A stretch of DNA of 64,000 bases from Geobacteraceae bacterium (GCA_021286935.1 JAJTBI010000005.1:1-64000), one strand, 5' to 3'; positions 53,812 through 64,000 are shown, numbered from the stretch's first letter. Made by a program: numbers and translations. The notes: a model not told the origin generated them from the sequence alone.

Positions 53812-55233
53812 ATGAACCTGAATACCCGCCTGGTCCTGATCATGATATCGCTGCTGGTATTGGCGGGGATGACGCTCTTTACCCTTAACCAGTTCTCTCA
53901 GACCGCTTTGGTACATGAAATTCAGGAGAGTTCCCGGGAAATTTCTAAGGCGGTGCAGCTCAGTATTGCTGATCTGACCTCTGAAACTGAAACATCAAGA
54001 CTTTCAGAGTATTTTGAGGGTGCCCGTCAAAAAGGGATTAATGAGATCAATATCATCAACAGTGAAGGGGAGATTATTGATTCCACCAATCCTGAAAAAA
54101 TCGGCAAGCTAAAGGACCTGAAGAAACTGGAAAAGGGGGTCAGATCGGCTCCCCGTAAAGCAGAGGGCGGGACAATCCTCTCCCAAAAACCGTATGATGT
54201 GGTGGTGCCGGTTATAGTTGGTGATGAACATCTGGGCTATGTGCAGGTCAATATGCTGTTGGATAACATTCAGAGTATCCAGCACTCCAATTTTATCAAG
54301 CGTTTGGCGGCAACCGGTATGGTGTTTACCGTTGGCATCGCCTTTTCAATCTATCTCTCCCGGCGTTATACTGATCCGATCCATCGGCTGGTGCAGGACT
54401 TCAAGAAGGTTTCCAGCGGCGATCTGTCGGTTACCATCCCCGTTGAAAGCGCCGACGAAGTTGGCGAGCTTGCCAAAGGCTTCAACGAAATGGTGGAAAA
54501 ATTGCGGGAGCGGGAAACCCTGGAGAAACGTCTGTATGAAGCAGAACACCTTTCCCGGGTAGGACAATTAGCTTCAGGTATAGCCCATGAAATACGTAAC
54601 CCGCTCAACTATATCAGTCTTGCCATTGATCATCTACGGAATGAGGTGGTAGAGCAATGTCCTGACCGGGCTGATGAGGTAACGGCGCTGGCGGAAAAGA
54701 TACGGGAAGAGGTTCGACGCGCCAACTACATGGTGATCAATTTCATGAATTATGGACGGCCTCTTAAGTTGCGCAAGAGTGAGATAACCTACGCGGAGCT
54801 GCTTGAGCGTACCCTATCAGTCTTGCATGATCGTTTAGCGGAACAGCGGGTGACAGTTGAAGAACATATTTCAGGCGATTTACCGGCATTGTCGCTTGAT
54901 CCTGAGTTGATGCGTAACTGTATTACCAACTTCATTACCAATGCAGCTCAGGCTATGGCTGATGGCGGTACGATTATACTGGGAGCAGAGCTTGATCAAG
55001 AGTCTGGCTGGGTGCGGCTTAGTTTTAAGGATCAGGGCTGCGGTATTGCTGCAGAAGACCTGGAAAAGGTCTTCCAGCCCTACTTTACCACTAAAGATGT
55101 GGGGATCGGCCTGGGGCTGGCCATTACCGAGCGGATTGTAAAGGCCCATGGTGGTGAGATACTGGTGGCCAGCAGGCCTGGTGAGGGAACCACCTTTACC
55201 GTGCGCTTGCCGATGGAGGAAGTAAAAGGATGA
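53812..55233 (+). CDS. NtrB-type membrane sensor histidine kinase
   Basis: A 473-residue kinase. A membrane helix at about 8-26 and another near 165-182 flank a periplasmic sensor domain (about 30-160). HAMP follows near 185-235 (RRYTDPIHRLVQDFKKV). The HisKA region carries phospho-acceptor H259 in GIAHEIRNPLNYI. The ATPase domain has an N box (NFITNAAQAM), DQGCGI and GIGLGLAI. It overlaps its response regulator by 4 bp. GGAG lies 7 bases before the ATG. The pair probably senses an envelope or periplasmic signal and controls sigma-54 genes. Confidence 0.93.
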   Translation: MNLNTRLVLIMISLLVLAGMTLFTLNQFSQTALVHEIQESSREISKAVQLSIADLTSETETSRLSEYFEGARQKGINEINIINSEGEIIDSTNPEKIGKLKDLKKLEKGVRSAPRKAEGGTILSQKPYDVVVPVIVGDEHLGYVQVNMLLDNIQSIQHSNFIKRLAATGMVFTVGIAFSIYLSRRYTDPIHRLVQDFKKVSSGDLSVTIPVESADEVGELAKGFNEMVEKLRERETLEKRLYEAEHLSRVGQLASGIAHEIRNPLNYISLAIDHLRNEVVEQCPDRADEVTALAEKIREEVRRANYMVINFMNYGRPLKLRKSEITYAELLERTLSVLHDRLAEQRVTVEEHISGDLPALSLDPELMRNCITNFITNAAQAMADGGTIILGAELDQESGWVRLSFKDQGCGIAAEDLEKVFQPYFTTKDVGIGLGLAITERIVKAHGGEILVASRPGEGTTFTVRLPMEEVKG

Positions 55234-56603
55234 GCGGAAGCATTTTGATCGTTGATGATGAAAAGGGGCAGCGTGAGATCCTGACCATGATTCTGCAGGG
55301 GGTCGGGTATGACACTGCCGAGGCTGCGGGTGTACAGGAGGCGCTGGCCTTGCTGGGCAAGCGGGAGTTTGATCTTGTTCTGACTGACCTGAAAATGCAG
55401 GGACAATCCGGGCTGGACCTGCTGGAGCAGGTTATGGCGGATGATCCCCAGCAGTGTGTGATCATGATGACCGCCCATGGGACGGTGGATTCTGCGGTAG
55501 GTGCCATGAAACGTGGTGCCTTTGATTATCTTGAAAAACCGTTGGAGCGGGAAAACCTGCTGCTGACTCTGAAGCGGGCCTTTGAACGGATTACCCTGGT
55601 ACGGGAAAACCGGGTGCTGCAGAAGCGGGTCGCTGAGATAGAACGGATCTCTTCCATCATTGGCGAGCATCCCAAGATGAAAGAGGTGTATCGGATTGTC
55701 ACAAAGATTGCCGCCACCTCATCAACGGTACTGGTTTATGGTGAATCCGGTACCGGCAAAGAGCTGGTGGCTCGTGCCGTGCATGATCGCTCTCCTCGCA
55801 AGGAGCAGCCGTTTATGGCCATTAACTGTGCCGCTATCCCTGAAACCCTGATTGAAAGTGAACTGTTTGGTCATGAAAAAGGGAGCTTCACCGGGGCCAA
55901 TGCCCGGGAGATCGGTATTCTTGAAGCTGCCAACGGCGGGACGGTTTTTTTGGACGAAATTGGTGAAATGAACGTCTCCATGCAAGCCAAGCTACTGCGG
56001 GCTATTCAGGAAAAAGAGATCCGTCGCGTGGGGGGCAAAATTAACCTGCCACTTGATGTACGCATTATCTCTGCCACCAACCGTGACCTGGAACAGGAAA
56101 TAAAAAAGGGAACCTTCCGCGAAGACCTCTACTATCGCCTGAACGTCATTCGGATCAACCTGCCGCCACTGCGGGAGCGGGGCAGCGATATCGCCACCCT
56201 GGCAAACTTCTTTGTAAAAAAATACCGTGAGGCGTCAGGTATTGCCGTTGAAGGGATATCCAAGCCAGCCCTTAAGCAGCTGATGAACTACACCTGGCCC
56301 GGCAACGTGCGCCAGCTGGAGTCAGTCATTGAGCGGGCCGTGCTGATGGCAGAAGGCAGCATCATCCAGCCGGAGGACTTGCCGACTGAAATCAGCAGCC
56401 TGAGCGAGGGGGTTATGGTCCCCTTTGAACTGCCGCCGGAGGGGATCAATTTTGAGGAGCTGGAAAAGGCGCTGATCCTTAAGGCGATGGAACGTGCCGA
56501 TTGGGTAATCGGCAAGGCTGCACCGATTCTGGGGCTCAGTTATAAAACGTTGCAATATCGGATCGACAAACATGGGATTGAGAAGCCGGAGAAACGGCGA
56601 TAG
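55230..56603 (+). CDS. Sigma-54 dependent response regulator (NtrC family)
   Basis: A 457-residue activator. The receiver domain (1-120) has phospho-acceptor D53 in LTDLKMQG. The AAA+ domain has Walker A GESGTGKE, the sigma54-contacting GSFTGA loop at 218-223, and Walker B-like GGTVFLDEIGEM. The C-terminal Fis-type helix-turn-helix (GKAAPILGLSYKTLQYRIDK) binds enhancers. It is encoded with its kinase, immediately upstream of the TPR/radical SAM gene run, which it may regulate. I found no clear TGGCAC-N5-TTGC promoter in the short gap downstream. Confidence 0.95.
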   Translation: MSGSILIVDDEKGQREILTMILQGVGYDTAEAAGVQEALALLGKREFDLVLTDLKMQGQSGLDLLEQVMADDPQQCVIMMTAHGTVDSAVGAMKRGAFDYLEKPLERENLLLTLKRAFERITLVRENRVLQKRVAEIERISSIIGEHPKMKEVYRIVTKIAATSSTVLVYGESGTGKELVARAVHDRSPRKEQPFMAINCAAIPETLIESELFGHEKGSFTGANAREIGILEAANGGTVFLDEIGEMNVSMQAKLLRAIQEKEIRRVGGKINLPLDVRIISATNRDLEQEIKKGTFREDLYYRLNVIRINLPPLRERGSDIATLANFFVKKYREASGIAVEGISKPALKQLMNYTWPGNVRQLESVIERAVLMAEGSIIQPEDLPTEISSLSEGVMVPFELPPEGINFEELEKALILKAMERADWVIGKAAPILGLSYKTLQYRIDKHGIEKPEKRR

Positions 56604-56668
56604 AGTTTAACTAAACAAGAGCAACTGCCGAAAAGTATACTGCACCCTATTGGAAGGAGGGTACTGCC

Positions 56669-57850
56669 ATGAGTTCATTCTTTGACCAATCTTCAGATGC
56701 TATATTTGCTGGAGCGCTGGCTGCCCAGAGCCAAAGGGCGAACCTTGCCAATTACGCTATTCAGCAAGCTGCACGTTATCTGCAAAATAACAATCAGGAT
56801 GCTGCATTAAAAGAGTTCAAAAAGGCGTTGGCCTTTGACAGTGAGAACTACACGGCTCACCAGTACATTGGCAACATATATCTTTCTCAAGGTAAGACTA
56901 AGGAAGCGATCAAGGAGTTTAAGGAGAATGTCAGGCTTCAGCCACTCTCTGTCAATTCGCTGGTGGATCTTGGTAACGCCTATATTCAGGATAAAAACTA
57001 TACTGAAGCTGAAAAAAGCTTGAAGAAAGCTGCCCGCATGGATCCACTGAATCCGGTTGCGGACTATACATTGGGGCATTTATATCTGAATACGGATCGC
57101 CTTAACGAAGCTGAAGCTGAGTTTAAAAAAGCGCAGAAGGTTTCTCCTAAGGATGGGAACGTCTACTACAGCCTGGGGATGCTCTATAATAAACAAGGTA
57201 AGTATGAAGATGCGGCGAAAAACCTTGAAAAATCGCTTGAACTCAAAAAGAAATTCCCAAGCGCAAATTATGAGCTTGGGGTGGCGTATAATGGAATGGG
57301 AGAAACAGAAAAAGCTCAGGCACAATTAAGTCTTTTGAATAGTTCAGATTATAGCTTGGCTCAAGACCTGAAGTATGTGATCAATAAGCCTAAAATAGTA
57401 ACAATGGATACTTCAAAAAGCGGCGGTTTCAGCGAACTGATGGGGGCGGGGACTCCGCTCTGGGCATTGGACCCGAGTCTTGTTGCACCGAACAGCTCAA
57501 AGGAATTTTCTGCAACGTTCACATTTTCGGAAAAAATGGATATCGCGTCGGTTACAAACCCTCTTAACTGGTCCATAACTCGCGCTAAAGGTGGAGTGGG
57601 CGGTTATTATAACAACACCATGCCCTATACGTCACGCGATGCGGCACCTCCTTCCATACCGTTGTCGGTTGTGTACAATGACCTGACACAAGAGGCGACC
57701 ATTAAGTTCAGAGTTGCACAAAATGAGGAAGGGAATGCTACTATTGACCCTTCTCACCTCGTCTTCGGTTTTAAAGGCAAAGATGCCTCTGGTCGGTCAA
57801 TGGATACAAGTGCAAATGAATATGATGGCTTTGCACTGAAAGCTTTTTAG
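56669..57850 (+). CDS. TPR protein with a C-terminal Ig-like domain
   Basis: A 393-residue protein. About six tetratricopeptide repeats span residues ~30-240 (for example DAALKEFKKALAFDSENYTAH and NYTEAEKSLKKAARMDPLN). The last ~130 residues form a separate beta-rich domain with FSATFTFSEKMDIASVTN and a PLNWSIT strand, like bacterial Ig-like (SbsA/Big_5-type) folds. There is no clear signal peptide. It is probably a scaffold that binds a protein partner. AGGAGGG lies 9 bases before the ATG. It starts 65 bp after the NtrC-type gene and is followed by a second TPR gene after 32 bp. Confidence 0.8.
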   Translation: MSSFFDQSSDAIFAGALAAQSQRANLANYAIQQAARYLQNNNQDAALKEFKKALAFDSENYTAHQYIGNIYLSQGKTKEAIKEFKENVRLQPLSVNSLVDLGNAYIQDKNYTEAEKSLKKAARMDPLNPVADYTLGHLYLNTDRLNEAEAEFKKAQKVSPKDGNVYYSLGMLYNKQGKYEDAAKNLEKSLELKKKFPSANYELGVAYNGMGETEKAQAQLSLLNSSDYSLAQDLKYVINKPKIVTMDTSKSGGFSELMGAGTPLWALDPSLVAPNSSKEFSATFTFSEKMDIASVTNPLNWSITRAKGGVGGYYNNTMPYTSRDAAPPSIPLSVVYNDLTQEATIKFRVAQNEEGNATIDPSHLVFGFKGKDASGRSMDTSANEYDGFALKAF

Positions 57851-57882
57851 TAAACTCGAAGTCCAATCCAAAGGAGTGTGAT

Positions 57883-59301
57883 GTGACAAGTGCTATGCTG
57901 ATGGAAACTACGGTACATGACGAAGGGGCGGTCTATGATCGGTTGAGTGCCTCATTGCAGGGTCTAACACCTGAAGAGGCCATCAGAAGAATCAAGGAGT
58001 TTCTTGCAACATTTCCTTCTTTTGCATTGGCCCATAATGACCTTGGTGTGTTGTATCATCAAGCTGGAAATTCCACACTTGCTTTGGCCTACCATGAAAA
58101 AGCGGCTCGATTGCAGCCAGAAAATACGCTGTTCAAAAAGAATTTGGCGGATTTTTATGCAGTTGAGTTGGGCTGGCTTGAAGAAGCGGTTGATATTTAT
58201 CTGGAAGTAGTGAAGCGCAATCCGAGAGATACCGAAGCTCTGATTGCTTTGGGGCAACTGGGGGCTGCACTGGCCGGTTCACGCATCTTGGAATCCTCAC
58301 CAGAAAGGATACAATTAGAGCCACATGCAGCGTCTTTAGCGGTAGAAATAGCGCCTGAAAATGAAGCAGAACTGTACCAAAAGGCCCAAAATATGACAGC
58401 CGAGGGGCAACTTTCGGAGTCTGCAGCCATACTGGAGGAGCTGATAAAGCGCCAACCTTCCCAGGCACTGTATTGCAACGACCTTGGAGTTGTCAGGTAC
58501 AGATCCGGCGATCTTGCCGGTTCTCAGGCATGCTATGAGAAAGCGGTCCAGTTAGAGCCTGGCAATACCCTGTATGCAAGAAATTTGGCAGATCTCTACT
58601 TTGCTGAGATGAATCGAGCTGATGATGCGATCCGTATTTACCTTGATCTTCATAGAGAAAAACCACGTGATGTTGAAACCCTGATCAGTCTTGGCCATAT
58701 CTGCGGGGCAGTTGACCGTCCGGATGAAGCCAAAATATTCTACCGCCGCGTCTTAGAGCTGGAACCTTGGAACAAGGAAGCGAGGCAGGCCCTTGCGTTG
58801 CAGCAGACGGGGCCGACCTCTGTGCCTTCACCGTCGCCGCATCCTGCCAAGTCAACCGAGCAACTGGTTGGAGAGGCACGGGAGTTGATGCTGCAAAATC
58901 AGGCTACTGAAGCCCGGAAGCTTCTGGAGCAGGCTATTGAACTTAATCCTCGTTCTGCTATGGCTCACAACGACCTCGGGGTGGTAGCCTATAGTCTTGG
59001 AGATGTTACTGCTGCACAGGCTGCTTACGAACAGGCCGTCAGACTTGAACCGGGCAATCTTAATTTCACCATGAATCTTGCTGATTTTTATTTTGTTGCC
59101 GCCAGTCGGGCGGATGATGCCATCCAGATGTATCTTGAACTTTTCCGGCAATTCCCACGTAACGTCGAAGTACTTACCGCCTTGGGGCGAATCTGCCAAG
59201 CTGTTGATCGACCTGATGAAGCTAAAATGTTCTATCGACGGGTATTGGAGATTGAGCCATGGAACAGTGAGGTGCGGGAAGCGTTGCAACGATCCACTTA
59301 G
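57883..59301 (+). CDS. TPR-repeat protein built of three homologous modules
   Basis: A 472-residue protein with a GTG start (AAAGGAG 6 bases upstream). It contains three ~130-residue modules beginning near residues 45, 190 and 350. Each has the order AHNDLGV..., YEKAVQLEPGNTLYARNLADLYF, DDAIRIYLDLHREKPRDVETL and DEAKIFYRRVLELEPWN. Modules 2 and 3 are most alike, so the third probably arose by tandem duplication. TPR arrays of this kind recruit modifying enzymes such as glycosyltransferases to substrates. It lies between the first TPR gene and the radical SAM genes. Confidence 0.85.
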   Translation: MTSAMLMETTVHDEGAVYDRLSASLQGLTPEEAIRRIKEFLATFPSFALAHNDLGVLYHQAGNSTLALAYHEKAARLQPENTLFKKNLADFYAVELGWLEEAVDIYLEVVKRNPRDTEALIALGQLGAALAGSRILESSPERIQLEPHAASLAVEIAPENEAELYQKAQNMTAEGQLSESAAILEELIKRQPSQALYCNDLGVVRYRSGDLAGSQACYEKAVQLEPGNTLYARNLADLYFAEMNRADDAIRIYLDLHREKPRDVETLISLGHICGAVDRPDEAKIFYRRVLELEPWNKEARQALALQQTGPTSVPSPSPHPAKSTEQLVGEARELMLQNQATEARKLLEQAIELNPRSAMAHNDLGVVAYSLGDVTAAQAAYEQAVRLEPGNLNFTMNLADFYFVAASRADDAIQMYLELFRQFPRNVEVLTALGRICQAVDRPDEAKMFYRRVLEIEPWNSEVREALQRST

Positions 59302-59385
59302 CAGTACATTACCTAGGTGACTGGTACAAACGCCGTTTTTTCACACCATCTGTTTTGATGTTGAATGTTTTACATGCGAGGAGCA

Positions 59386-59586
59386 ATGAATATTTTGGTG
59401 CTTTGCGTTTCAGGCGTGCTTGGCCACACACTTTTTATGTACTTATTCATTTTTGAACGGCATTTTGCATGGGCGGTAGATCGTAATTTATTGCCATTTA
59501 ACCCCTTTTTTTTGCTAGTGCAGTATCAGCGTATATTAAGTAGTGGTGTCGATGTAGGTAAATTAGGCTTTGTGATGGACAGATGA
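59386..59586 (+). CDS. Small membrane protein coupled to a radical SAM gene
   Basis: A 66-residue protein starting at ATG with GAGGAG 5 bases upstream. The N-terminal half is strongly hydrophobic (ILVLCVSGVLGHTLFMYLFIF), followed by an amphipathic aromatic-rich stretch (ERHFAWAVDRNLLPFNPFF) and a short polar end GKLGFVMDR. It overlaps the radical SAM start by 4 bp (ATGA). It could anchor a complex at the membrane or, less likely, be a modified peptide. No family is recognised. Confidence 0.65.
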   Translation: MNILVLCVSGVLGHTLFMYLFIFERHFAWAVDRNLLPFNPFFLLVQYQRILSSGVDVGKLGFVMDR

Positions 59587-60470
59587 CAGCTCTGCCCCCA
59601 ATAACTCCCAAAGAACACCATAATTATGTCGCTTTCTTCCTGACGTTGGCCTGTAACCTCGCCTGTCCTTACTGTATCAACTTACACAACAGCAATAATC
59701 GTTTTAATCAGGCTGATCGGCGAGCTCTGGATGTAGGAGACTGGATCAGGTCAGCCAACCGGCTTCTGTTGCGGGCTGATCTCCCTTTAACGCTCCAAGG
59801 TGGAGAACCGACGCTTTATCCAGGTTTTTACCGTTTCGTGAATGAGGTCAAGCCTGAACTGAAGATGGACCTTATGACCAACCTCATGTTTGATGTTAAT
59901 GTGTTCATTAAGAATGTTCCACTCTGGCGCTTCACTCGCGAGGCACCTTACGCCGCTATCCGGGTCAGTTATCATCCAGGTCAAAATGACATCGATGACC
60001 TGATTGTTAAAACCATAAAACTTCGTGATGCCGGCTTTCGGGTCGGGCTGTACGGTATTGAACACCCCGATCCGCAGCTTCGCATGCATATTCAGGAAAC
60101 GCAACGACGTTGCCTTGAGTTAGGACTTGATTTCAGGATGAAGGAGTTTCTGGGAGAGTATGGTGGGAAAATGTTCGGAACATTCAAATATGACAATTGT
60201 GCTACTGGGCAAACGATGCGTACCTGCGTATGTCGCACAACTGAAATCATTGTTGATCCAGCAGGATATGTATATAAATGCCACGCCGATCTGTACAACG
60301 GAAGAGATCCGATAGCACATATCCTTGATCCTGATTTCAACGAGAATTCCATTGACAAATTTAGGAGTTGTTCAAGTTTTGGAAGCTGCAACCCTTGTGA
60401 TGTTAAGATCAAGACCAACCGCTTTCAGGTCTTCGGACATACCAGCGTGGAAATACGGGATATACGATGA
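59583..60470 (+). CDS. Radical SAM protein with Cys-rich C-terminal region (1)
   Basis: A 295-residue enzyme. The [4Fe-4S]-SAM motif is C24-NLA-C28-PY-C31. A glycine-rich LQGGEPTLYPGF strand typical of the family follows near residue 73. The C-terminal part has clustered cysteines (TCVCRTTEIIV, YKCHADLY, CSSFGSCNPC), suggesting auxiliary cluster(s) as in SPASM/twitch enzymes. It therefore probably modifies a peptide, protein or small molecule by radical chemistry. It overlaps the genes on both sides by 4 bp. The substrate is unknown. Confidence 0.88.
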   Translation: MTALPPITPKEHHNYVAFFLTLACNLACPYCINLHNSNNRFNQADRRALDVGDWIRSANRLLLRADLPLTLQGGEPTLYPGFYRFVNEVKPELKMDLMTNLMFDVNVFIKNVPLWRFTREAPYAAIRVSYHPGQNDIDDLIVKTIKLRDAGFRVGLYGIEHPDPQLRMHIQETQRRCLELGLDFRMKEFLGEYGGKMFGTFKYDNCATGQTMRTCVCRTTEIIVDPAGYVYKCHADLYNGRDPIAHILDPDFNENSIDKFRSCSSFGSCNPCDVKIKTNRFQVFGHTSVEIRDIR

Positions 60471-61531
60471 AAAGTTTCAGTTTTGAGGGGCACAAGCTGA
60501 TGTACCATCTGGACAGGGTTCAGGAGTACATGACCAAAGGAGACTGTTTTCCGCTCTATATTGAAGTCAGTCCTGTAGGTAGCTGTAACCACAGGTGTGT
60601 ATTCTGTGCCTATGATTATATTGGATACCCTAACCGCAAACTTGAAACAGTCAGGATGCTGGAGCTGATTGATGAGCTTGCGGAGTGCGGTTTGAGGAGT
60701 ATGTTGTTTGCGGGCGAAGGTGAACCGCTGCTGCATCCGGATATTGTGCCGTTTGTTGCAAGGGCCAAGGAAAAGGGGATTGATGTCGGTCTGTTCACCA
60801 ATGGACAATTACTTGATGCCCAAATGGCAGAGCAGCTTTTGCCGCTGTTGACATTTGTCCGTTTCAGCTTCAATGGCGGAGGCCGCGAAAATTATGCTGC
60901 TGTGCATTCGGTAAAAGCGGATGTGCATGACAAGGTGGTGAATAATATCACAAAAGCGGTGGAACTGCGCAATTCCAATCGCTGGGCGGTTGATATTGGC
61001 AGCCAGTTTGTACTGTTACCGGAAAATATCGCATTTCTTGAAACTGCAACGGAAATTCTCAAATGTTGCGGTGTTGACTATCTGTGCATAAAGCCTTTCA
61101 TGCAGCGTGTATCACAGACATATCAACTGAATAATCAATTTCAACTGCAGGAAATAGACGCCACACTGGCCAAGGCAGAAAGGCGTTCCGACAGCACCTT
61201 CTCTGTGCTTGCAAGACGCAACACTTTTCAGAACTACGGCAAGCGCAGTTATGACCACTGCTTCGGAACTAGTTTCATTACAGTACTTAATTCGGCAGGT
61301 GTCATCAGTAGCTGCCTGCCTTACTGGGAGCTTGAGGATTTCGCCTATGGCTCGATTTATCTGCATAGTTTTCGTGAAATCTGGAACTCTGAAAAACGCA
61401 TAAAGATAAAGGACTTTCTTGAAAACAGAATTGATGTGCATGCATGTCCTGCCAGTTGCCGCCCTGATGCAACTAATAGTTTCTTGTGCGATATCAGGCA
61501 CCCGCAAGTCAAGCATATCAATTTTATATGA
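60467..61531 (+). CDS. Radical SAM/SPASM protein (2)
   Basis: A 354-residue enzyme. The CxxxCxxC motif is C40-NHR-C44-VF-C47. A GEGEPLLHPD strand motif follows. The C-terminal SPASM-like region holds further cysteines (SSCLPYWE and HACPASC). The order resembles enzymes that mature peptides or act on carbohydrates such as KDN or heptose derivatives. It overlaps the first radical SAM gene by 4 bp (ATGA), and the next gene starts after 27 bp. The two proteins are not close copies of each other, so they probably perform different steps. Confidence 0.9.
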   Translation: MKSFSFEGHKLMYHLDRVQEYMTKGDCFPLYIEVSPVGSCNHRCVFCAYDYIGYPNRKLETVRMLELIDELAECGLRSMLFAGEGEPLLHPDIVPFVARAKEKGIDVGLFTNGQLLDAQMAEQLLPLLTFVRFSFNGGGRENYAAVHSVKADVHDKVVNNITKAVELRNSNRWAVDIGSQFVLLPENIAFLETATEILKCCGVDYLCIKPFMQRVSQTYQLNNQFQLQEIDATLAKAERRSDSTFSVLARRNTFQNYGKRSYDHCFGTSFITVLNSAGVISSCLPYWELEDFAYGSIYLHSFREIWNSEKRIKIKDFLENRIDVHACPASCRPDATNSFLCDIRHPQVKHINFI

Positions 61532-61558
61532 TTTAATTCTGGAAAGATCGGCGGGGGA

Positions 61559-63043
61559 ATGTCTAAGATCCTGTTCATAGAGTCCGACTTGCGTAATGAA
61601 AAACTGGGCATCATGTACCTGTCGGCCTCGCTGCTGAATGCAGGGCATGAAACCAGGCTCTGCTGGCTGGAGAGAGAATCTATTGATGAAGTTATTGCTG
61701 ATTTCAGGCCGGATTATCTGGCCGTAAGTCTGGTAACAGGCGCTCACCGTTCCATACTGTCTCTTACAGAAAACTTAAAGAAACAATATCATCTCAAGGT
61801 TATTGCCGGCGGCCCCCATGCGACCTTTTTTGCTGACAGCATCCCGCTTGAGACTGCTGACTATATTGTGGTCGGACCGGGAGAACAGGCCATTGTTGAT
61901 ATTGTTGAAGGCAGGACTGGCGAGCGCGTCATGAGATATCCACTGGCGGACCTTGAAAAGCTTGTCTTCCCGGATCGGGCGTTGTTCTATCGCTATCCAG
62001 AATTCCGCGACAATCCGATGAAAAATATCATTACTTGCCGTGATTGCCCCTACTCCTGCAGCTACTGTTATAATCATACCTGGAAGCAGATGTTCAGCGG
62101 CCAGCCGCATTTTCTTCAGAAGCTCAGTGTTGATCGTGTATTGGAAGAAATAGCGAAGCTGCGAAGTGTATATCCGCTTCGGCAGGTGCTGTTCATAGAT
62201 GACAATTTTCTGTTTGACCGTGGCTGGATTGAGGGGTTCTGCAAACGTTATACGACTGAAATCGGCCTGCCGTTTCTCTGCAGTTTTAGCCTCAATCTGC
62301 TCGATGAAGGAATTGTCGTGCTGCTAAAAGAGGCAGGCTTGTTCATGGTCAATTTTGCTTTAGAATCAGCGGATCCGGCTGTACAGTGTGAGATACTGAA
62401 TCGCGGACATGTGAGAAATGACCAGGTCATAGCCGGAATAGAGCTGATGCGGAAATACGGGATCAAATGCCGCATGCAGAACATGATCGGCCTGCCGGTC
62501 AGGGACTCTCTGGCTGACGCCTTGAATACGCTGGAGTTCAACAGGCTGAACAGGGTGGATGACAGCTGGGTATCCATCTTCCAGCCCTACCCGAACACAC
62601 GTATGGCAGAGTACTGCGCCAGGAACGGATTTATCCCTGATGACGGTGAGTCATATGCGGACAGCTTTTTTGCTAAATCCTGCCTTCAGATTGATCATGC
62701 TGATGAAATAGCCAGGTTGCAGAAGTGGTGGTATTTTGTGATCAGGTACAATCTGCCCGAATATACAATTCATAAGCTTCTTAAAATCAGGCTGACAGAG
62801 GCACAGGGAGAGGCACTTCAAAAACTGCGGTTCGAGTATTCTCGTTGCTACCTGTATGGGCTGGATATTGACAATCCACTACTGATACATGACTTCCGAC
62901 AGCTGTCCGCACAACATGGGGAAAAAGCCGTTTTCAAAAGACTTGAAGGATTTGTCCGGCGATTTGGTATCGGGGCTGGGCTTGTTGATATAATGCTCGG
63001 ACTGGAGTTGCCGGATTCGATCAATGGATTGGACAATCTATGA
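61559..63043 (+). CDS. B12-binding-fold radical SAM protein
   Basis: A 494-residue class B-type radical SAM enzyme. Residues 1-~120 form a cobalamin-binding-like Rossmann domain (PDYLAVSLVTGAHRSI, VIAGGPHATFF, DYIVVGPGE) but lack the DxHxxG cobalt-ligand motif. The radical SAM motif is C163-PYS-C167-SY-C170, with an additional C160. Later motifs include VLFIDDNFLFDRG and NMIGLPV. Such enzymes often methylate unactivated carbons or rearrange rings, but this one has no assigned substrate. It overlaps the glycosyltransferase gene by 4 bp. Confidence 0.9.
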   Translation: MSKILFIESDLRNEKLGIMYLSASLLNAGHETRLCWLERESIDEVIADFRPDYLAVSLVTGAHRSILSLTENLKKQYHLKVIAGGPHATFFADSIPLETADYIVVGPGEQAIVDIVEGRTGERVMRYPLADLEKLVFPDRALFYRYPEFRDNPMKNIITCRDCPYSCSYCYNHTWKQMFSGQPHFLQKLSVDRVLEEIAKLRSVYPLRQVLFIDDNFLFDRGWIEGFCKRYTTEIGLPFLCSFSLNLLDEGIVVLLKEAGLFMVNFALESADPAVQCEILNRGHVRNDQVIAGIELMRKYGIKCRMQNMIGLPVRDSLADALNTLEFNRLNRVDDSWVSIFQPYPNTRMAEYCARNGFIPDDGESYADSFFAKSCLQIDHADEIARLQKWWYFVIRYNLPEYTIHKLLKIRLTEAQGEALQKLRFEYSRCYLYGLDIDNPLLIHDFRQLSAQHGEKAVFKRLEGFVRRFGIGAGLVDIMLGLELPDSINGLDNL

Positions 63044-63981
63044 AAACCAAAGTTCTGATCATCAAGATGGGGTACTCTGAAACATTGGACCAGGAGATCG
63101 GCAAAGTACCGAGCCTGGGTGATGTGCTGCGCACAACGCCTATATTGTGGGGACTCAGGGAAAAATTCCCGGAGTGCCATGTTACCTGGCTGACGTCGGA
63201 ACAGTCAGAACCGCTCTTGAGAGGCAATGGCTTGATTGACAGAATTCTGGTATGGGACGAGTTTGTGCCATTTCAGCTTATGCGTGAAAAATTTGATGTG
63301 CTTGTCAACCTTGAAAAAGTGCCAGGGGTTGCGGCGCTGGCAGACATGATCGATGCCTGGACCCGCTACGGTTTTCGTTTTGATAGTACGGAGGGTTCCT
63401 ATCATTGCTATGAGCGAGGCATGAGCTTCATAAGTTATATCAACGACAAAAAGGACGGGAAAAAAACTGGAGAACTGTGGCAGAAGATGTTGATCGAGAT
63501 GATCGGTGTGGAGTGGAAGTCACAGGAGTATATTCTTGGATACCGCCCCTGTAATGAGGAGTGCTTTGATGTTGGCCTGAACTACATGGCCGGTTCCAAG
63601 TGGCCGACTAAAATGATGTCGAAGCAGAAATGGGACCAGCTTGCAGAACTGTTGAAGCGGCAGGGGTACAAGGTTTCTTTTCAACAGGGACTTCAGGATT
63701 TGCATGAATACATTGACTGGATCAATTCGTGCAAAATTATCATCTCTCAGGATAGTCTTGGAGTACATCTGGCCCTGGCCCTGGACAAGAACCTTGTCGG
63801 GCTTTATGGTCCGACAGACCCCACGGAAATCTTTCTTTACAGGCGTGGGAAGCATGTGATAGCCGGCACGAAGTGCCCCCACATGCCATGTTACAGCCCA
63901 AGCTGTTTGAACGGAATGGATTGCATGGAGAATCTCGACCTGTCTTGCATTGTAGAGGCGTGCGTGGCGTTGCATGGCTAG
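63040..63981 (+). CDS. Family 9 glycosyltransferase (heptosyltransferase-like)
   Basis: A 313-residue glycosyltransferase of the ADP-heptose:LPS heptosyltransferase type. It starts MKTKVLIIKMGYSETLDQ, with LGDVLRTTPILWGLREKFPE (N-terminal donor fold) and, near the end, DSLGVHLALALDKNLVGLYGPTDP, the family's acceptor/nucleotide region. Two extra CxxC-like cysteines lie in the tail (TKCPHMPCYSPSC). It probably adds a sugar to a surface glycan or to the product of the adjoining radical SAM proteins. It overlaps the preceding gene by 4 bp and the next by 8. Confidence 0.88.
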   Translation: MKTKVLIIKMGYSETLDQEIGKVPSLGDVLRTTPILWGLREKFPECHVTWLTSEQSEPLLRGNGLIDRILVWDEFVPFQLMREKFDVLVNLEKVPGVAALADMIDAWTRYGFRFDSTEGSYHCYERGMSFISYINDKKDGKKTGELWQKMLIEMIGVEWKSQEYILGYRPCNEECFDVGLNYMAGSKWPTKMMSKQKWDQLAELLKRQGYKVSFQQGLQDLHEYIDWINSCKIIISQDSLGVHLALALDKNLVGLYGPTDPTEIFLYRRGKHVIAGTKCPHMPCYSPSCLNGMDCMENLDLSCIVEACVALHG

Positions 63982-64000
63982 CGCTAACAATTCATTCAAG
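63974..64000 (+). CDS. Start of a further gene in the operon (partial)
   Basis: An ATG overlapping the glycosyltransferase stop by 8 bp opens MASANNSFK and runs off the window. The overlap fits the coupling seen through the operon, but nine codons do not identify a product. Confidence 0.3.

Follow-up and report, generated by a model that had tools for sequence, protein, structure and literature searches.

The DNA considered here, 64,000 nucleotides from a Geobacteraceae bacterium (GCA_021286935.1 JAJTBI010000005.1:1-64000; the whole stretch is called the window), ends in a run of seven genes, all on the + strand and directly 3' of a kinase/regulator pair. The run begins with a gene for a tetratricopeptide repeat (TPR) protein, TPR1 (position 56669), and ends with one for a glycosyltransferase of family GT9 (position 63981). 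Between them lie a second TPR gene (TPR2), a doubtful short open reading frame (ORF), and genes for three radical S-adenosylmethionine (SAM) enzymes, called here rSAM1, rSAM2, and B12rSAM. I propose that these genes form the 5' end of a flagellin glycosylation island some 50 kb long, in which the TPR pair is followed by an exchangeable radical SAM cassette for building a glycan. This is probable because glycosyltransferases, DegT aminotransferases, and GT41 follow on the same contig (C148), and a second contig (C122), which would come next, ends in flagellin.

The window covers the initial 64 kb of C148, which measures 85.8 kb, and a search past position 64000 finds that the same-strand gene run extends for another 22 kb, to the contig end at 85821. 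The first gene past GT9 has no Pfam match, and I read it as CgeB-like. Then come genes for GNAT/FemAB, DegT, a B12-binding radical SAM enzyme, a radical SAM enzyme with a SPASM domain, a formyltransferase, a methyltransferase, DegT, and another methyltransferase, followed by a 965-aa fusion protein, a methyltransferase, an epimerase of the 4,6-dehydratase type, DegT, GT2, a GT2-TPR protein, and GT41. The stretch beyond the window thus contributes a second B12-binding and two more SPASM radical SAM enzymes, with three copies of DegT in total. Sugar-biosynthesis genes and glycosyltransferase genes, both characteristic of such an island, are present. C148 terminates inside the GT41 gene. C122 opens with a GT41 tail, the final 18 shared residues of its C-terminus, and then encodes another GT41 that ends in that same C-terminus, which suggests that tandem copies of GT41 broke the assembly between the two contigs. 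C122 goes on with more glycosyltransferase- and methyltransferase-like genes and has the 5' half of flagellin at its end. The 3' half opens a third contig, C35, where FlaF follows; I read the short gene between them as FlaG-like. If C148 and C122 are adjacent, then the order is likely kinase, regulator, TPR1, TPR2, glycan genes, flagellin, FlaF. The island would then be located at a flagellin gene, as it is in relatives, at distances of 16-38 kb.

The 965-aa protein is of interest in itself. It is a single ORF (G000:C148:74185-77082; L008:18185 to L009:1082) that joins radical SAM/SPASM, Glyco_trans_1_2, and methyltransferase domains in an unusual triple fusion.

The features at the end of the window are these:

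53812 to 55233, + strand: NtrB-type sensor histidine kinase, with HAMP, HisKA, and HATPase_c domains
55230 to 56603, + strand: NtrC-type sigma-54 response regulator, overlapping the kinase gene by 4 bp
56608 to 56634, + strand: sigma-28 (FliA)-like promoter element, TAAC-N15-GCCGAAAA, 34 bp upstream of TPR1
56669 to 57850, + strand: TPR1, with a TPR superhelix (residues 8-238), a C-terminal beta domain, and an invariant Phe as last residue
57883 to 59301, + strand: TPR2, an all-TPR protein, found after TPR1 in several genomes
59386 to 59586, + strand: doubtful hydrophobic ORF of 66 aa, with GAGGAG upstream and a 4-bp overlap with rSAM1
59583 to 60470, + strand: rSAM1, radical SAM enzyme with a SPASM/twitch-type C-terminal set of Cys (C24xxxC28xxC31; C217, C233, C263, C269, C272)
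60467 to 61531, + strand: rSAM2, radical SAM/SPASM enzyme, nearest solved structures DesII and BlsE
61559 to 63043, + strand: B12rSAM, B12-fold radical SAM enzyme, nearest solved structure AprD4
63040 to 63981, + strand: GT9 (heptosyltransferase-type) glycosyltransferase, its 3' end near the window edge

An earlier reading of the window, made from the sequence alone, gave the same genes in the same order on one strand, directly downstream of an NtrB/NtrC-type pair, and all of these ORFs are there. It was also right about a 27-bp gap (61532-61558). The overlaps that it put at up to 8 bp come to three real ones, each of 4 bp. Its 66-residue membrane protein exists as a hydrophobic ORF (GC 39%) and is the weakest element of the run, with no domain match in Pfam or NCBIfam; the 26 other rSAM1 regions contain nothing convincingly homologous to it (best E = 0.36). 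The idea that it might be the precursor of a ribosomally synthesized and post-translationally modified peptide (RiPP), or a conserved partner, was rejected, since its sequence is not conserved across those 26 loci. It is the sole small ORF, and no conserved small precursor of the RiPP type was found beside a radical SAM enzyme. Pfam supports the two TPR proteins, rSAM2 (Radical_SAM and SPASM), B12rSAM (B12-binding and Radical_SAM), and GT9 (Glyco_transf_9). None of the run's proteins reaches an NCBIfam equivalog cut-off.

The sequence-only reading took the seven genes as one modification system with TPR scaffolds. Part of that stands, in that the radical SAM enzymes and GT9 make up a recurring cassette. 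The TPR pair belongs to a separate module. Of 76 genomes in the family, 60 have TPR1 and 14 have rSAM1. In a genome of the same genus (G073), the kinase, regulator, TPR1, and TPR2 are all retained, at 94, 97, 83, and 64% identity, and a different cassette stands behind them. Elsewhere, in families other than this one, the radical cassette lacks TPR1 and mostly adjoins type IV pilin. Since the TPR pair and rSAM1 occur independently, these are two modules, not one system, and rSAM1-rSAM2-B12rSAM-GT9 is an exchangeable cassette. The sequence-only reading had itself named independent occurrence as grounds for giving up a single system. Content that varies between conserved flanks is just what a glycosylation island shows.

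Then there is the evidence that connects TPR1 with flagella. TPR1 is found in 58 of the 67 genomes that have flagellin and in 2 of the 9 that do not (Fisher p = 1.5e-4), and where the two genes share a contig they lie within 60 kb of each other in 39 of 40 pairs. In one genome (G029), flagellin begins 189 bp beyond TPR1 and is followed by FlbT and FlaF. Judged by sequence and gene distribution, TPR1 is a flagellin-linked protein conserved in the Geobacter family, and TPR1-TPR2 is a flagellar pair, conserved in the family and separate from the radical cassette. TPR2 shows 64-66% identity in genomes of the same genus and 32-35% in other genera; the syntenic kinase and regulator retain 69 and 76% in G012. 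TPR1 is predicted to fold as a TPR superhelix plus a C-terminal beta domain. Its C-terminal region finds no match in a sequence search of the PDB. Foldseek returned only generic TPR superhelices among the matches listed, OGT included, and was set aside as uninformative with regard to function. The genome under study has a second TPR1 paralogue (G000:C94:19742-20935; L069:10742-11935) of 39% identity, beside an EF-hand-like protein and off the flagellin contigs.

How is the run transcribed? With a sigma-54-type two-component pair immediately upstream, one might suppose a metabolic operon under nitrogen control (NtrBC) that has nothing to do with any filament. I consider that highly improbable. 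The window contains 49 matches to the sigma-54 consensus, against 49.6 expected by chance, so a sigma-54 promoter was rejected as evidence, and none of the matches falls within 150 bp upstream of TPR1. The regulator scores below the NCBIfam cut-off for an ntrC equivalog (446 vs 559 bits), TPR1 tracks flagellin, and in one genome (G047) no such pair precedes TPR1. What does lie upstream is a conserved sigma-28-like site. When the 150 bp upstream of TPR1 is scored against TAAA-N14/15/16-GCCGATAA, an element with at most two mismatches appears in 22 of 25 orthologues, as compared with 4.3% of 439 control ORFs in the same loci, and the mean number of mismatches is 1.7, as opposed to 4.0 in dinucleotide shuffles. 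The 25 orthologues are not independent samples; nonetheless, the element is kept across genera. The TPR pair is probably transcribed from this late-flagellar type of promoter, if the resemblance to sigma-28 sites is a guide. The flagellar context, i.e. this promoter together with flagellin, FlaF, and GT41, is what the sequence-only reading overlooked.

Near-perfect sigma-28 sites (0-2 mismatches) stand out in the otherwise diverged DNA upstream of TPR1 at four loci (L034, L033, L039, and L046). These sites would help to define the FliA motif of the Geobacter family.

What might the cassette do? That it contains three radical SAM enzymes, as first read, is borne out by Pfam for rSAM2 and B12rSAM. 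rSAM1 falls just below the Pfam gathering score (27.4 vs 29.5 bits) and is identified by its CxxxCxxC and five further Cys, invariant in 15 homologues, and by a predicted structure (pLDDT 86.5) whose fold matches SPASM/twitch enzymes. Searches of Pfam, NCBIfam, and PDB name no equivalog for the radical SAM proteins. The solved structures nearest to rSAM2 are DesII and BlsE, nucleotide-sugar enzymes, and the one nearest to B12rSAM is AprD4, an aminoglycoside sugar enzyme. These act on sugars, and a sister SPASM enzyme of the island is fused to glycosyltransferase and methyltransferase domains; I therefore propose that the cassette carries out radical tailoring of sugars. The earlier suggestion that a sugar is modified before glycosyl transfer would accordingly be the best reading.

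The solved structures nearest to GT9 are heptosyltransferases, which opens another view: that the cassette makes a sugar for O-antigen or another surface polysaccharide, its proximity to flagellar genes being fortuitous. The relatives of GT9 include the heptosyltransferases of lipopolysaccharide (LPS), the island's sugar genes are of O-antigen type, and part of the family has rSAM1 apart from any flagellin or pilin seen. I think it unlikely. GT9 shares a fold family with the LPS enzymes (PF01075) and scores far below them, at 26-53 bits against equivalog cut-offs of 134-569; for heptosyltransferases I, II, and III, NCBIfam gives 53.1, 48.3, and 46.0 bits, with cut-offs of 185, 135, and 170, none reached. 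A sigma-28-like promoter heads the gene run, the island contains GT41, a protein glycosyltransferase, and there is repeated proximity to filament genes, flagellin in one clade of rSAM1 and type IV pilin in another family.

The surroundings of rSAM1 were compared across 27 regions, which are not independent samples. Of these, 23 have GT9 at most 11 kb from rSAM1, 23 have an rSAM2 homologue (at least 33% identity), and 22 have a two-subunit thiamine pyrophosphate (TPP) enzyme, of transketolase or E1 type. One genome (G032) has the same order, rSAM1-rSAM2-B12rSAM-GT9, at 72, 62, 60, and 75% identity, and named carriers of the cassette include Citrifermentans bremense and Geotalea toluenoxydans. 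The rSAM1 tree has two supported clades (100/96). The first comprises loci of the Geobacter type, with flagellin 16-38 kb away in all four whose contigs are long enough (G012, G047, G061, and G032). The second comprises loci of other families and some from the Geobacter family, the latter with neither filament gene on the stretches seen. In one family of the same phylum (f62), rSAM1 has a gene for type IV pilin at most 5.3 kb away in 15 of 20 loci; in the remaining five, pilin was not found on the same contig. Like the present locus, those of f62 have rSAM1, GT9, B12-rSAM, and rSAM2 homologues on one strand, with a sigma-54 two-component pair nearby. They differ in lying beside PilA, PilS, and PilR (PilC-type genes also adjoin rSAM1), in having TPR membrane proteins and the two-subunit TPP enzyme, and in being far from flagellin. 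Because rSAM1 of f62 adjoins a pilin gene in so many loci, the cassette looks like a portable module for filament glycans.

Four clade-two loci of the Geobacter family (L059, L077, L079, and L083) carry the same cassette with PMT/TPR-type membrane proteins, and no flagellin or pilin is seen there. In five loci with the cassette (L042, L047, L070, L098, and L099), the two-subunit transketolase and the E1 alpha/beta-type TPP enzyme seem to substitute for each other. Their alternation hints that alternative carbon units are added to the sugar.

Several observations weigh against a flagellin glycosylation island with a sugar-tailoring cassette. The glycan on flagellin is itself predicted from genes, and the assembly does not link C148 to C122. 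A nearby GT9 is missing in 4 of the 27 rSAM1 loci, and the rSAM1 contigs of six genomes (G029, G010, G041, G011, G026, and G019) show neither flagellin nor pilin. No TPP enzyme of the kind frequent in the cassette turned up in this island, and this genome gave no match to E1-alpha, an empty answer that carries little weight. The best NCBIfam model for rSAM2 is a tungsten-cofactor maturase (TIGR04317; 82.7 bits, cut-off 380), ahead of DesII at 55. Finally, the folds nearest to modeled rSAM1 include those of the peptide and protein maturases SuiB and anSME, along with the aminocyclitol dehydrogenase SpeY, so that its substrate may be a peptide or protein as well as a sugar. Such folds, and the TPR proteins adjoining rSAM1 here, would suit the notion that at least one radical SAM enzyme modifies the filament protein directly, by peptide-type chemistry, with the TPR proteins holding the substrate. 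I judge this quite unlikely. GT9 and TPP enzymes recur with rSAM1, the island's sister SPASM enzyme is fused to a glycosyltransferase, there is no conserved precursor peptide, and homologues are found beside two unrelated filament proteins, flagellin and pilin, in the latter case without TPR1. A cassette that serves two unrelated proteins better fits the making of a glycan building block than protein-specific modification.

A flagellin glycosylation island might work as follows. The epimerase, DegT aminotransferases, and formyl-, acetyl-, and methyltransferases would make amino and deoxy sugars. rSAM1, rSAM2, and B12rSAM would act by radical chemistry on the sugar or its nucleotide, deoxygenating, oxidizing, epimerizing, or C-branching it. 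Assembly of the sugar residues would fall to GT9 and further glycosyltransferases (GT2-type), and cytoplasmic GT41-type enzymes would attach the glycan to flagellin before its export. TPR1 and TPR2 would most likely present flagellin to the modifying enzymes or hold the enzymes together. TPR1, widespread in the Geobacter family and tracking flagellin, thereby gains a testable function. It is a fair conjecture, advanced tentatively, that rSAM1, GT9, more radical SAM enzymes, and, as a rule, a TPP enzyme of two subunits constitute a portable pathway to a radical-built filament sugar (branched, deoxygenated, or C-methylated), put to use by flagellin in relatives of Geobacter and by type IV pilin in a different family of the phylum, its chemistry undescribed so far.

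Radical SAM enzymes that act on sugars are known mainly from antibiotic pathways. DesII, BlsE, AprD4, and SpeY, the likenesses noted above, serve antibiotic synthesis and not filament glycans, and the relationship is distant (55 vs 450 bits for DesII and 52.9 vs 500 for AprD4, NCBIfam equivalog cut-offs). That such a cassette recurs next to flagellin in one lineage, and next to type IV pilin in a different one, would suggest that some filament glycans form a class made by radical chemistry. The glycans of Geobacter pili and filaments have practical interest, as these structures are studied with a view to electron transfer.

The open-access literature yielded no paper tying radical SAM enzymes to the glycans of flagellin or pilin, and titles and abstracts revealed no study of flagellin glycans in Geobacter. 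The sequence-only reading could name no known RiPP, PQQ, or LPS-core cluster of this composition. For the radical SAM sugar-tailoring cassette no description was found; the flagellin glycosylation island is a known kind of locus. In Enterobacteriaceae, such islands have been reported to contain GT41/SPINDLY, GT2, DegT, and formyl- and methyltransferases (De Maayer & Cowan 2016, PMC4875605), an account in whose main text the term 'radical SAM' occurs nowhere. The present island resembles them in having, at a flagellin locus and between conserved flanks, a variable block of genes for sugar biosynthesis and glycosyltransferases, in all of those enzyme families, and in its fusions of glycosyltransferase with methyltransferase. 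It differs from them in its radical SAM genes, at least five, its GT9, and its conserved TPR1/TPR2 pair.

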